Positions 59,706 to 64,000 of a stretch of 64,000 bases of DNA are shown here, in pieces. The notes beneath the pieces are model-generated. The model was not told the DNA's origin. It was given only the letters and a program-made list of their open reading frames with translations, and did not search any database. The DNA comes from Ruegeria sp. R13_0 (GTDB taxonomy: Bacteria > Pseudomonadota > Alphaproteobacteria > Rhodobacterales > Rhodobacteraceae), in the NCBI RefSeq assembly GCF_017743995.1, contig NZ_JAGHRB010000001.1, positions 310,001-374,000 of the forward strand, given 5' to 3'. Each line of letters begins with the position of its first letter. The first letter of the stretch is position 1. Made by a program: the position numbers and the translations under genes.

Positions 59706-60803
59706 ATGGGTCCTTTCCCGCACAACGCCCCGAAATCTGTCATCAGCCCTGAAAACCCGGCAGGTACCGACGGGTTTGAGTTTGTCGAGTTCGCGCATCC
59801 CGAACCGCAGGAGCTGCGTGATCTGTTCGCAAAAATGGGCTTCGATCTGGTGGCCCGCCACAAAATCAAACCGCTGGTCGAGCTGTGGCAGCAGGGCGAT
59901 GTCACCTATATCCTGAACGCTGATCCCGAAAGCTATGCCGACAAGTTCGTCGCGGAACACGGCCCCTGTGCGCCCTCGATGGGCTGGCGCGTTGTGGACG
60001 CGCAGAAAGCCTACGACCATGCCGTCGCAAAAGGCGCAGAGCCGTATGACGGTGCGGATAAGACGATGAATGTCCCGGCCATAAAGGGGATTGGCGGATC
60101 GCTGATCTACTTCATCGACCAGTATTACGATACCTCGCCCTACAATGAGGAATTTGCGTGGATCAAGGAATCCAAACCGCGCGGCGAGGGATTCTACTAT
60201 CTCGATCACCTCACCCACAATGTCTACCGGGGCAATATGGACAAGTGGTTCAAGTTCTATGGCGACCTGTTCAACTTCCGTGAAATCCGGTTCTTTGATA
60301 TTCAGGGCAAGTTCACCGGTCTCTATAGCCGCGCGCTGACATCGCCCTGTGGCCGCATCCGCATCCCCATCAACGAGGATCGGGGCGAAACGGGTCAGAT
60401 CGTCTCTTACCTCAAAAAGTACAAGGGCGAGGGCATTCAGCATATCGCGGTGGGCAGCGAGGACATCTATGCCTCGACCGACGCCATTGCCGAGAACGGG
60501 TTGAAGTTCATGCCGGGTCCGAACCAATCCTACTATGACATGTCCAAAGACCGTGTAACGGACCACGATGAGCCGCTGGATCGGATGATGAAGCACGGCA
60601 TTCTGATCGACGGCGAAGGCGTTGTGGATGGGGGTGAGACACGGATTCTGCTGCAGATCTTCTCAAAAACCGTGATCGGCCCGATCTTTTTCGAGTTCAT
60701 CCAGCGCAAAGGGGATGATGGGTTCGGTGAGGGTAACTTCCAGGCCCTGTTCGAATCCATCGAACGCGAGCAGATCGAAAGCGGTGAGATTTCGGCGGCT
60801 TAG
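59706..60803 (+). CDS. hpd: 4-Hydroxyphenylpyruvate dioxygenase
   Basis: 365 residues. The three iron ligands are all present: His168 in L-D-H-L-T-H-N, His246 in I-Q-H-I-A-V and Glu330 in F-F-E-F-I-Q. The enzyme converts 4-hydroxyphenylpyruvate to homogentisate in tyrosine degradation and in some bacteria starts pyomelanin formation. GAAGGAG-type ribosome binding is visible upstream. It is divergent from an Lrp-type gene. The next genes of the homogentisate pathway are not in the window. It overlaps the convergent methyltransferase gene by 4 bases. Confidence 0.97.
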   Translation: MGPFPHNAPKSVISPENPAGTDGFEFVEFAHPEPQELRDLFAKMGFDLVARHKIKPLVELWQQGDVTYILNADPESYADKFVAEHGPCAPSMGWRVVDAQKAYDHAVAKGAEPYDGADKTMNVPAIKGIGGSLIYFIDQYYDTSPYNEEFAWIKESKPRGEGFYYLDHLTHNVYRGNMDKWFKFYGDLFNFREIRFFDIQGKFTGLYSRALTSPCGRIRIPINEDRGETGQIVSYLKKYKGEGIQHIAVGSEDIYASTDAIAENGLKFMPGPNQSYYDMSKDRVTDHDEPLDRMMKHGILIDGEGVVDGGETRILLQIFSKTVIGPIFFEFIQRKGDDGFGEGNFQALFESIEREQIESGEISAA

Positions 60804-61420
60804 GCTGTGCCGAAAACAAGCCAAGTCCATGTCACACCAGCGCGCTGGTTGGCTGGTTGTATCGAGTTGGCTCGGGACCTGTGGTGCACCTGCAGGCCCG
60901 AGCTTACAGCTTGATCAACGATGGCGTCGTCCGAAATCTTAAAACCGGGTCGGTCCGGCGGGCAAGGGCCATGTCTGAGCGACAAAATCATCTGCCCTTG
61001 CGGCCGCAAGCGTTCAGACAGAACACTGATCGCCGCGTGTTGATCGCGCGGGGGAAGATGGTGCAGGACGCCGACGACCAGAATGGTGTCGAATGCGGCA
61101 CCGTCTGGCAGGGCGCTTGGTCTGGGCAGACAAGCATCAAGCCATTTGACGGATAGCGCGCCATCACCGCGCATCGCGTGGTTGCGAAAGGCGTCGACTG
61201 GCTCGATCGCCGTCACGTCGCAGCCTCGTTTGGCCAGCCATCGCGCCACCGTTCCAGTGCCCGCGCCTACGTCCAGAACGCTCGCCCCGGTATCCGGCAA
61301 GTGATCCAAAACGGGGCGCAGGACATCGGTAGGAGAAAGGCTGTCATAGGCCGGGATCAAGTGGGTGGCCGCGTGTTCGTACCCAGCTTTGACTGTCTGA
61401 AAATACAGGTCCTCAGCCAC
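60800..61420 (-). CDS. Class I SAM-dependent methyltransferase
   Basis: 206 residues. The SAM-binding motif is V-L-D-V-G-A-G-T-G-T-V near residues 48-58, motif II is the acidic A-I-E-P near 72-75, and D-T-I-L-V-V-G-V-L-H-H-L-P near 111-123 is the post-II segment. The substrate is unknown; a small molecule is more likely than DNA. It overlaps the upstream fusion-protein gene by 8 bases, so the two may be co-expressed, though a functional link is not evident. Confidence 0.85.
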   Translation of the reverse strand: MAEDLYFQTVKAGYEHAATHLIPAYDSLSPTDVLRPVLDHLPDTGASVLDVGAGTGTVARWLAKRGCDVTAIEPVDAFRNHAMRGDGALSVKWLDACLPRPSALPDGAAFDTILVVGVLHHLPPRDQHAAISVLSERLRPQGQMILSLRHGPCPPDRPGFKISDDAIVDQAVSSGLQVHHRSRANSIQPANQRAGVTWTWLVFGTA

Positions 61421-63284
61421 GCGGCATTTTCAAAGTCAGGTTGCGACCCTTCTTCTCATACCGCAATTCGCTGTCGCTGATGGCGATTACCTTGCCGCCG
61501 TCAATCCGGTCTCCGATCTTGAGCTTTTTGTACCGACCACTCGGAAGCCGGACGAGGGCACGGCGATTTGCGGGTGTGCCGTAGACGCCGATCAGGTTCA
61601 GCTTGCGCAGGTTCAGGGCATTGTCGATTGTGGCCTGCCGCGCGACCGAGGCCGTTGTCGGAATTTTCGGGGCCACGGATTTCGGCTGGAAGGATCCGGC
61701 GTCGTCATTGTTGGACGCGACTGCTGCGGTGGATCCCAGATTTGATCCGCTCGCGCTGGCCGAGGCCACGGCCCGCGCAGGCCGCAATTTGGGGCGCGGG
61801 ACGCGAACAACGGCCAAGGCGGTGGGCGTGTCGTCGACCTCGGGCGCTACCTGTAGGCTTTCGGGCCGCAATTTGGGTCGTACGACCGCAAGCTCTTCAA
61901 GACTGCGCCCACCCAATTGCGTGCGTTCGAAATTCTCGACCAGATTGCCGGGGCGGGACCGGGGGCGGAGTTCGGCCAGCCTCTGGTTGACCTCATCGAC
62001 CACGGGTTCTTCCTCGAACCGCACCGGTACTTCGGGCGGGACTTTGGAGGGGCGACCCAAATAGACCACGACCCCTTCGGGCGACAACGCGCCTTCTGCG
62101 GTCGGTACGACCAACCCGCGTTCGTCCAGCTCGTATTGCGCGCCTGCGATTGCGGGGCCGGGAATGCGCTCAAAGGCGGCATCTGTGTCGAAACTGCTTT
62201 GGTCGGGCAGGGCGATCGCGTCGCTGGACAGATCCGAGTTGTGAATAGACGCGAGGTAGAGGTCATCTTCGGAAATCAATGCCGGGGTAATCGGCGCTTC
62301 GGGGGGCTCCACTAGGGTGCCCGCGACCTCTTCGACGTCGCTTTGGGCCTCGGGGTCCTGTGCAATCTGCTCCACAGGCGTCGGCGCGACTTTCAGCGCT
62401 TCGAGAATGGCCGCATCTGTCGGGGACAATTCTGGCTGGGCTTCAGGTTCTGGTACTTCTTCCGCTGCCGGTGCCACCGCGATTTCGGTTTCAGGCTCTG
62501 GATCCGTATCAGGCGGTGAAGCGTCCTGAGACTGCGGTGCAGACAGTTCGGCCGTATCGTTTTCGGTAGACGTGTCGTTGTCTGGGCCTGCCCCGATCAG
62601 AGACCACGCCCATACACCTACCCCAACGCAGATCAGCGCGGCAATCGCGGGAAACGCCCAACGTTGTCCCTTGTTCGATGCGGGAGGCAACGAGATTGCG
62701 GTCGTAGCAGGTTCGGGAGAGCGGAACGCCGTAGGCGCCGCGTCATCCGCTATGGCGTGAACCGGGGGGCTTTCTAGCTCGGGCTCGGGTGAAGGCGCAG
62801 CGACCTGCGGCTCGCTGGTCAGGTCAAATACAGGCTCGCGCGGAAATTCGGCCTCAGTCGTGGCTGCACTATATGTGACCGGCAGGAACCCGTGCTGCGC
62901 GGCAAAGGCCTGCGCTTCATCCAGCGTCTCGCGCGCGACGGCGGCGACAAAGGTGGTCGACCCCTCGGTTGCGCTGTCGTAGGACAGATCGGCCAACTCA
63001 TAGGGCGTAGCCTCGGCGACTGCGGCTTGAACTTCGGACGCGATCTGATCTTCGCTTTGGCCTTCCGTGGGCAGGGCAAGATACCGCACCTGATCTGCGG
63101 GCAGCACCAGTTTGCAGCTCAGGTCGTTTTCCAGTGCAAACGCCTTGTCGTGCAGGGCTTTGATCTGGTCACTCAGATCCGGGGCCGACAAAGGCACTTC
63201 GCCAATATCGTACCATTCACCATCCGAATGGTGTTGAAGGGAAATTCCGGTCGCAGAAAAGGTCAGCGCAAAAGCGGGTTTCAT
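61413..63284 (-). CDS. PilM/GspL-like to PilP/GspC-like fusion membrane protein
   Basis: 623 residues. Residues 1-150 resemble the cytoplasmic actin-like part of PilM or GspL, with F-S-A-T-G-I-S-L-Q at the start and R-Y-L-A-L-P then Q-I-A-S-E-V-Q-A near 67-86. Residues 209-231 are one membrane helix. A long Glu/Pro/Ala/Asp-rich linker (about 232-545) should cross the periplasm. Residues 549-623 resemble the PilP/GspC homology region, with L-N-L-I-G-V-Y-G-T and R-Y-K-K-L-K-I-G-D-R-I. In pili and type II secretion these parts sit in separate proteins. No pilus or secretin gene lies nearby. No ribosome-binding site is evident. Function unknown. Confidence 0.7.
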   Translation of the reverse strand: MKPAFALTFSATGISLQHHSDGEWYDIGEVPLSAPDLSDQIKALHDKAFALENDLSCKLVLPADQVRYLALPTEGQSEDQIASEVQAAVAEATPYELADLSYDSATEGSTTFVAAVARETLDEAQAFAAQHGFLPVTYSAATTEAEFPREPVFDLTSEPQVAAPSPEPELESPPVHAIADDAAPTAFRSPEPATTAISLPPASNKGQRWAFPAIAALICVGVGVWAWSLIGAGPDNDTSTENDTAELSAPQSQDASPPDTDPEPETEIAVAPAAEEVPEPEAQPELSPTDAAILEALKVAPTPVEQIAQDPEAQSDVEEVAGTLVEPPEAPITPALISEDDLYLASIHNSDLSSDAIALPDQSSFDTDAAFERIPGPAIAGAQYELDERGLVVPTAEGALSPEGVVVYLGRPSKVPPEVPVRFEEEPVVDEVNQRLAELRPRSRPGNLVENFERTQLGGRSLEELAVVRPKLRPESLQVAPEVDDTPTALAVVRVPRPKLRPARAVASASASGSNLGSTAAVASNNDDAGSFQPKSVAPKIPTTASVARQATIDNALNLRKLNLIGVYGTPANRRALVRLPSGRYKKLKIGDRIDGGKVIAISDSELRYEKKGRNLTLKMPRG

Positions 63285-63448: not shown

Positions 63449-64000
63449 TTGAAGACATTCGCTTTTCTGGCCGCGATGATGGCCGCAACTACCGCCGGGC
63501 TGGCACATGCGGAAGAACGTCGCATCAACGTGGATGCCACCGGAACCGTTCAGGTTGCCCCCGATATGGCGACGATCACCCTGGGTGTGACACATCAAAA
63601 CCCCGAGGCAACCGAGGCCATGAAAGCCACCTCGGACGCTGTGGCGCAAGTGCTTGCGCGGTTGGGTGAAATGGGCATCGACGAGCGGGATTTGCAAACC
63701 CGTGACCTGTCTTTGTCGCCCATCTGGTCGAATCGAAACCAGCAAAACGGGGAACCACCTGAGATCACCGGATTTGTCGCCTCGAACCGAGTGTTCGTGC
63801 GGGTGCGTGATCTGACGCAACTGGGTGAGGTCATGGATGCGGTCATTCAGGATGGGGCCAACGATTTCAGCGGGTTGAGCTTTGGTCTGCAAGACCCTGA
63901 ACCGATTGAGGTTCAGGCCCGTGCAAAAGCTGTGAGCGAAGCAACTGCAAAGGCCGAGCAACTTGCCCAAGCCGCCAATGTCACGTTGGGGCCAGTTCAG
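63449..64000 (+). CDS. SIMPL-domain (DUF541) secreted protein, C-terminus cut off by the window edge
   Basis: An open frame runs from a TTG at 63449 to the right edge (184 codons), with GGAGGG 7 bases upstream, which makes TTG the most likely start. Residues 1-21 are a signal peptide ending L-A-H-A. The rest begins R-I-N-V-D-A-T-G-T-V-Q-V-A-P-D-M-A near 25-41, the SIMPL signature. These are periplasmic or outer-membrane-associated proteins of uncertain function, linked to oxidative stress in some bacteria. It is divergent from the fusion protein. Confidence 0.9.
   Translation, partial: MKTFAFLAAMMAATTAGLAHAEERRINVDATGTVQVAPDMATITLGVTHQNPEATEAMKATSDAVAQVLARLGEMGIDERDLQTRDLSLSPIWSNRNQQNGEPPEITGFVASNRVFVRVRDLTQLGEVMDAVIQDGANDFSGLSFGLQDPEPIEVQARAKAVSEATAKAEQLAQAANVTLGPVQ

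Follow-up and report, generated by a model that had tools for sequence, protein, structure and literature searches.

The window, a stretch of 64,000 nt from Ruegeria sp. R13_0, holds on its reverse strand an open reading frame of 623 aa that starts with ATG and whose parts are listed in Table 1. The gene contains no internal stop in any of the 25 genomes of the genus, the source genome included. Against four relatives from the same genus the differences at codon positions 1/2/3 amount to 159/117/371, 193/133/368, 192/150/365 and 200/136/375. With 365–375 differences at third positions versus 117–150 at second positions, selection at the protein level is clear and, judged by this codon pattern, the gene is real. 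Scans for promoters and terminators gave nothing above chance. A preliminary description had proposed one chain that joins a GspL/PilM-like part to a PilP/GspC-like part through a membrane helix (placed at residues 209–231) and a spacer. The reading frame, the N-terminal domain (residues 1–152), one hydrophobic segment (209–233), a linker of 315 aa and an all-beta C-terminal domain were all located as proposed there.

Table 1. Parts of the gene and their positions in the window
Feature	Position	Strand	Evidence
Whole gene, 623 aa: PilM/GspL-like cytoplasmic domain, transmembrane helix, linker, PilP/GspC HR domain (topology predicted)	61413..63284	-	ORF, codon-position constraint, homologues
N-terminal domain, residues 1-152, first half of the PilM/GspL fold	62829..63284	-	AlphaFold, Foldseek, VIA, hhalign
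Single predicted transmembrane helix, residues 209-233, N-in/C-out by charge	62586..62660	-	Hydropathy
Pro/Glu/Ala-rich linker with conserved patches, presumed periplasmic, residues 234-548	61641..62585	-	Composition, alignment of 26 homologues
RPxxRP motifs, starts at residues 440, 469 and 497	61779..61967	-	Motif positions
C-terminal HR domain, about residues 562-623	61416..61601	-	AlphaFold strands, VIA, TIGR03021, hhalign

The N-terminal domain was modelled with AlphaFold from an alignment of 37 N-domains, with a mean pLDDT of 93.3 over residues 1–152. When this part was compared with solved structures by Foldseek, the top match was PilM of Pseudomonas (E 3.6e-8), followed by GspL/EpsL (4.4e-8 and 4.7e-8) and then FtsA. 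With VIA-align 2, for which Z values below 8 are frequent among unrelated models, the domain reached Z 11.8 with the PilM:PilN complex 5eou (146 residues, 3.0 A) and 11.7 with EpsL 1yf5 (142 residues, 3.2 A); the remaining PilM and GspL entries scored 11.1 to 7.7, the cell-division protein 3wt0, which we take to be FtsA, 8.9, FtsA 8.6, and Hsp70 and others at most 7.2. The proposal of a GspL/PilM-like N-terminus (residues 1–150) therefore finds its structural match.

At the level of single sequences the relationship is barely visible. PilM_2 was the commonest Pfam match among the N-domains, although it reached no more than 4 of the 37, with 0.062 as the lowest E; the window's own N-domain gave no match to it. 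The T2SSL family had no match in the source genome at E 0.001 and one at 0.19 among the 37 members, and a phmmer search of the protein against solved structures found nothing. The source genome has four PilM_2 matches at two genes with frames of 450 and 370 aa, whose alignments are confined to the middle or the end of that model and which are probably FtsA and MreB; none lies at this gene. An hmmsearch of the N-domain profile against solved structures was set aside, as its matches were at chance level only (centromere protein S, 0.028; a GspL fragment, 1.3). Profile-profile comparison by hhalign was more informative: a profile of 142 distinct N-domains aligned with one built from 30 PilMs along 133 collinear columns (E 2.9e-5), and with a second set of 20 PilMs, from genomes overlapping the first, at E 3.7e-5. 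The best of 18 other profiles (PilN, PilO, PilP, PilQ and 14 neighbour clusters) reached 0.07. Since the probability of the PilM sequence match is 74%, the fold match bears most of the weight.

Together, these results show that the N-terminal module is homologous to the first half of PilM/GspL, corresponding to subdomains 1A/1C of PilM. The profile alignment spans PilM residues 14–171 of about 355. As it stops at residue 171 and the 56 residues left before the helix at residue 209 are too few, the ATP-binding second half of PilM is absent, and the PilM/GspL likeness holds for residues 1–152 and not for that half. At the position of the GxDxSS...K motif, D is present in 29 of 30 PilMs versus 6 of 142 N-domains, 117 of which have S or T instead.

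Hydrophobic segments were scored with a hydropathy threshold of 1.7, the best segment being sought between residue 150 and 150 residues from the end. Exactly one segment lies above the threshold in 55 of 56 distinct homologues, and the exception (L018) peaks at 1.62. In all 56 the N-terminal side of the best segment is the richer in Lys and Arg. By the positive-inside rule this points to an N-in/C-out topology in which the PilM-like part would be cytoplasmic and the linker and HR domain periplasmic. Among twelve diverged regions, the homologue of G048 (L247) peaks at 1.48 with nothing above threshold and, by this measure, may lack the membrane helix, and those of G046 and G130 have two hydrophobic segments. 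Between about 206 and 626 residues precede the helix in the homologues; the part that follows it is less variable in length (349 to 488, median 408). Hydropathy gave no N-terminal lipoprotein signal; the chain starts with the folded domain, and residues 209–233 are the sole segment above the threshold.

The linker consists of 13% Pro, 18% Asp plus Glu and 14% Ala, which agrees with the Glu/Pro-rich spacer described before. It is not random filler, since the alignment of 26 homologues shows conserved blocks, the RPxxRP motifs among them. Three copies of this motif occur in 33 of 56 homologues and two in the other 23, with an exact spacing of 29 residues between the first two in 52 of the 56. 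As a control, 204 frames of ten neighbour clusters (69,721 residues) contained none. The ferredoxin-like domain of GspL was sought by Pfam search alone, with no match above cut-off in the linker. A DprA winged helix at residues 278–325 (Pfam 0.009, below cut-off) was rejected as low complexity.

For the C-terminus the last 110 residues were modelled (model residue 1 is residue 514). AlphaFold places the strands of an all-beta domain at about residues 563–619, with a pLDDT of about 94 over this domain and low confidence before about model residue 42. Foldseek ranks 1–8 were PilP structures, one GspC-GspD complex and one chain, taken here as PilP, from 3jc8, a model of the type IVa pilus machine. 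VIA-align 2 gave Z 10.2 with the HR domain of GspC (3oss; 60 residues, 1.5 A), 9.7 with 3jc8, 9.1 with PilP 2lc4 and 2y4y, 7.7 with a Dot/Icm chain, 6.5 with GspB and 5.4 with GspC-HR 2lnv, and the first unrelated row followed at 4.5. Furthermore, when matches were accepted at E up to 1, the PilP family TIGR03021 matched 38 of 38 C-termini (lowest E 6.9e-8, and 1.2e-5 for the domain in the window), the GspC model 31 of 38 (best 0.003) and the type III secretion SctD model 9 of 38 (best 0.0013). The scores of the window's own domain are below the curated cut-offs (26.3 bits versus 34.65 for TIGR03021; 12.9 versus 25.6 for PF04351). A profile of 137 C-termini matched one of 14 PilPs at E 2.6e-8 with a probability of 95% (hhalign), the best of 19 other profiles reaching 0.064. 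The C-terminal HR domain is homologous to PilP/GspC, as had been suggested for residues 549–623. The last 110 residues of 38 proteins, part of which come from one genus, have a mean column identity of 72%. An hmmsearch of a C-domain profile against solved structures returned a single chance match (0.77) and was discarded.

Short paralogues consisting of the HR domain only were also seen. One of 82 aa lies at G000:C56:179016-179261 (L058 9020-9268), others in L116, L117, L119 and L141, and outside G000 their open frames measure 95 to 146 aa. The gene adjoins a short-chain dehydrogenase gene and lies downstream of a glutamine amidotransferase/phosphoribosyltransferase gene, probably purF. Its Pfam matches are sub-threshold (PilP 0.0059; ribosomal L2 C-terminal 0.00041). 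Inspection by eye shows neither a signal nor a membrane helix in these paralogues, and HR-like domains may therefore have a cytoplasmic role in these bacteria.

The protein was found in 25 of 25 genomes of the genus and in none of 16 from other families of the class. Among 148 genomes of Rhodobacterales 146 had a match, which may in some be to the short HR-only paralogue alone, and the two others (G062 and G178) were both recovered by the C-terminal profile. The N-terminal profile found 14 of the 15 genomes tried; it missed G178, yet both ends are present in frames there. Where the DNA itself was inspected, in 89 members of the order, the two ends share a frame in 86. One exception is a frame break (G093); in G140 and G149 an apparent split of the protein was traced to contig ends. 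In a class-wide sample of 289 genomes the C-terminal profile matched only the four of this family, the 285 others consisting of 20 that are listed, all of other families, and 265 that are not listed. A collection of named genomes yielded 588 stretches, of which 566 were confirmed. The best 80 of these all carry both ends in one frame and come from bacteria that bear names of Rhodobacterales genera or from unnamed alphaproteobacterial MAGs. Among the matches listed, the closest named relatives are mostly Ruegeria species, which points to this genus as the most likely source of the window. The protein is thus present throughout the Rhodobacterales sampled.

The gene neighbourhood was compared in 45 regions from 44 genomes. 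The gene itself was clustered in 37 of these regions; in seven of the other eight it is an ungrouped frame of fitting length and place, and in the region L063 it is masked by an antisense frame. A PLP enzyme of Cys/Met metabolism recurs in 32 of the 45, a SIMPL-domain protein in 27 and a cation/proton exchanger in 26, among others. When the 17 other clusters that recur most were each run through Pfam with one representative, 12 gave a family, namely PLP enzyme, SIMPL, exchanger, HPPD, CobS, Lrp/AsnC, phosphoribosyltransferase, CarD, S4, ferredoxin, MgtE and ion channel, and no pilus or secretion family is among these 12. The other five representatives are without a Pfam family and may be wrong frames. 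The context of a pilMNOPQ cluster is absent from this recurrent neighbourhood.

That no secretin gene is close agrees with the preliminary description. In the source genome the secretin and T2SSF matches occur only on contig C2, not on the gene's contig; C2 also carries the single RcpC, and the T2SSF genes number two. A secretin family was detected in 144 of the 148 genomes of the order. The four others (G062, G093, G094 and G176; genera g23, g23, g50 and g82) are 99–100% complete. Denise et al. (PMC6668835) name the inner-membrane platform protein, whose domain is T2SSF, as a key component of the type IV filament superfamily. Neither T2SSF nor RcpC matched in the four genomes, nor did STN there or in the window's genome, with models that matched 13 (T2SSF), 1 (RcpC, Caulobacter) and 5 (STN) of 14 control genomes. 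We take STN as the Pfam model of the N0-type domain. The protein is intact in G062 (994 aa), G094 (879 aa) and G176 (1107 aa); in G093 (L241) both ends are present in different frames, which was not counted as intact. As four genomes keep the protein, three of them intact and one frame-broken, while secretin, T2SSF, RcpC and STN are not detectable, it is, as far as tested and as judged by these four families, independent of a secretin-type or Tad machine. Together with its occurrence throughout the order, this makes the finding stronger than first described.

The protein shares the fold of its N-terminal 152 residues with PilM and GspL/EpsL. It differs from PilM by the missing ATP-site half, the replaced GxDxSS...K motif and a membrane helix in the same chain. 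GspL, which is not known to bind ATP either, likewise combines a cytoplasmic actin-like part with one helix. The fold of the C-terminal approximately 62 residues is that of PilP and GspC-HR. In contrast to PilP, the protein stays under the curated cut-off, has no N-terminal signal and has a PilM-like domain first. Many GspC proteins have a PDZ domain, whereas this chain ends with the HR domain. One helix and an HR domain are features of both GspC and GspB, but the cognate secretin with its N0/STN domain is not matched here (4 of 148 genomes without secretin, no STN in five genomes). GspB/OutB has one membrane helix and a periplasmic HR domain too, and the structure of the latter gave the Z of 6.5 mentioned above. 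GspB works with the secretin GspD and peptidoglycan, however, and the protein described here does not require a secretin; moreover, the extra cytoplasmic domain of GspB is DUF3391 and not a PilM-like part. In PMC9239104 such an additional cytoplasmic domain is described for GspBs of Alteromonas, and the HR domain of GspB is known there as a tether. GspB is the nearest working model; by analogy the protein would be a tether that grips through a PilM-like part in the cytoplasm and works without a secretin. For PilP joined to an inner-membrane neighbour there is a precedent in the PilO-PilP fusions of type IV pili (PMC3169554); these belong to a pilus system, whereas here the PilM half is fused. 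A literature search for PilM/PilP and GspL/GspC fusions or orphans, Rhodobacterales included, found no such protein, and no link to this gene could be made from the accessible part of a Tn-seq paper on R. sphaeroides (PMC5513736).

We consider it somewhat more probable than not that the protein is an orphan bitopic inner-membrane tether across the envelope, built from two modules of type IV filament machines. According to PDB entry titles and PMC8389850, the tail at the N-terminus of PilN is held by PilM, while GspL contacts the motor ATPase GspE at the latter's N-terminal domain. In a similar way the cytoplasmic module would hold a cytoplasmic protein or peptide. The linker would cross the periplasm and the cell wall, and the HR domain may dock by beta-strand pairing on a non-secretin partner in the periplasm or outer membrane. 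A cytoplasmic component would in this way be coupled to the outer envelope with no need of a pilus or a secretion machine. We infer topology, grip, docking and linking function alike. According to PMC3169554 and PMC9239104, the secretin N0 domain is the reported partner of the HR domains of GspC, PilP and GspB, GspC binding through pairing of the first strand; PilP of Myxococcus, however, is reported to have bound the Secretin_N region (PMC3724824). As STN had no match in five genomes, that of the window included, the docking step is without a candidate partner; neither side of the protein yielded a binding partner. The earlier idea of an orphan linker used by another machine is strengthened by the four genomes in which the protein persists although secretin, T2SSF and RcpC are not detectable, while physical linking on behalf of another machine can be suggested and not more. 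A bolder form of the same thought, to which we give slightly less than an even chance, is that a PilM and a PilP module became joined and left the type IV filament world for a trans-envelope linker that needs no machine and is universal in one order. Its HR domain would bind a non-secretin partner, and its RPxxRP repeats would bind the cell wall or some other protein of the envelope. Counting against the tether are the HR-only paralogues without visible signal or helix, the weak helix in L018 and G048, the two segments in G046 and G130 and the 74% probability of the PilM profile match.

In a rival reading the protein serves signalling or as a scaffold at the inner membrane, its HR domain reaches no outer partner, and the RPxxRP motifs are the real interaction sites. 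These motifs are present in all 56 homologues, mostly with the constant spacing of the first two, the paralogues are without a visible export signal, and the helix is weak in two homologues. However, the charge distribution around the best segment, identical in direction in 56 of 56, would place linker and HR domain outside, and we regard such a scaffold as unlikely. Slightly less likely still is an auxiliary part of the Tad pilus. In this case the HR domain would dock on the Tad secretin and the cytoplasmic part would attach to a Tad motor protein, so that the protein stands in for the PilMNOP chain, which Tad does not have. The wide occurrence of secretin in the order (144 of 148) would fit, as would the RcpC and two T2SSF genes that share a contig with the secretin in this genome. 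But the gene lies on a different contig from these, the secretin of this genome has no STN match, and the four genomes that keep the protein without secretin, RcpC or T2SSF match belong to three genera.

Another alternative is that the protein is a fossil of an ancestral type II secretion system or type IV pilus and is being lost; both modules descend from such systems. This reading is largely refuted by conservation and has very little probability: 146 of 148 genomes of the order match and profiles recover the other two, the constraint at the codon level is strong, and the mean column identity at the C-terminus is 72% in proteins partly of one genus. Just as improbable is a chance resemblance to PilM and PilP that arises because small folds of this sort are common. 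All Pfam matches of the protein are sub-threshold, hmmsearch against solved structures stayed at chance level and Z values below 8 are common for unrelated models. Yet two independent ends point to the same kind of machine with profiles tested against 18 and 19 controls, the PilM match is collinear over its 133 columns, and TIGR03021 was matched by every one of the 38 C-termini.

The role known for PilM and PilP is that of alignment parts in pilus and secretion machines. If the protein is indeed kept without a machine, the two modules would be able to act more generally as a linker across the envelope. A core gene of marine Roseobacter bacteria that has no annotation would gain a testable role, and it might allow the PilM and HR domains to be studied by themselves in a minimal system provided by nature.

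Two frames flank the gene in the window. A SAM-dependent methyltransferase frame (60800–61420) overlaps its end by 8 bases and may be translationally coupled to it; upstream and divergent lies the gene for a SIMPL-domain (DUF541) protein (63449–64000).
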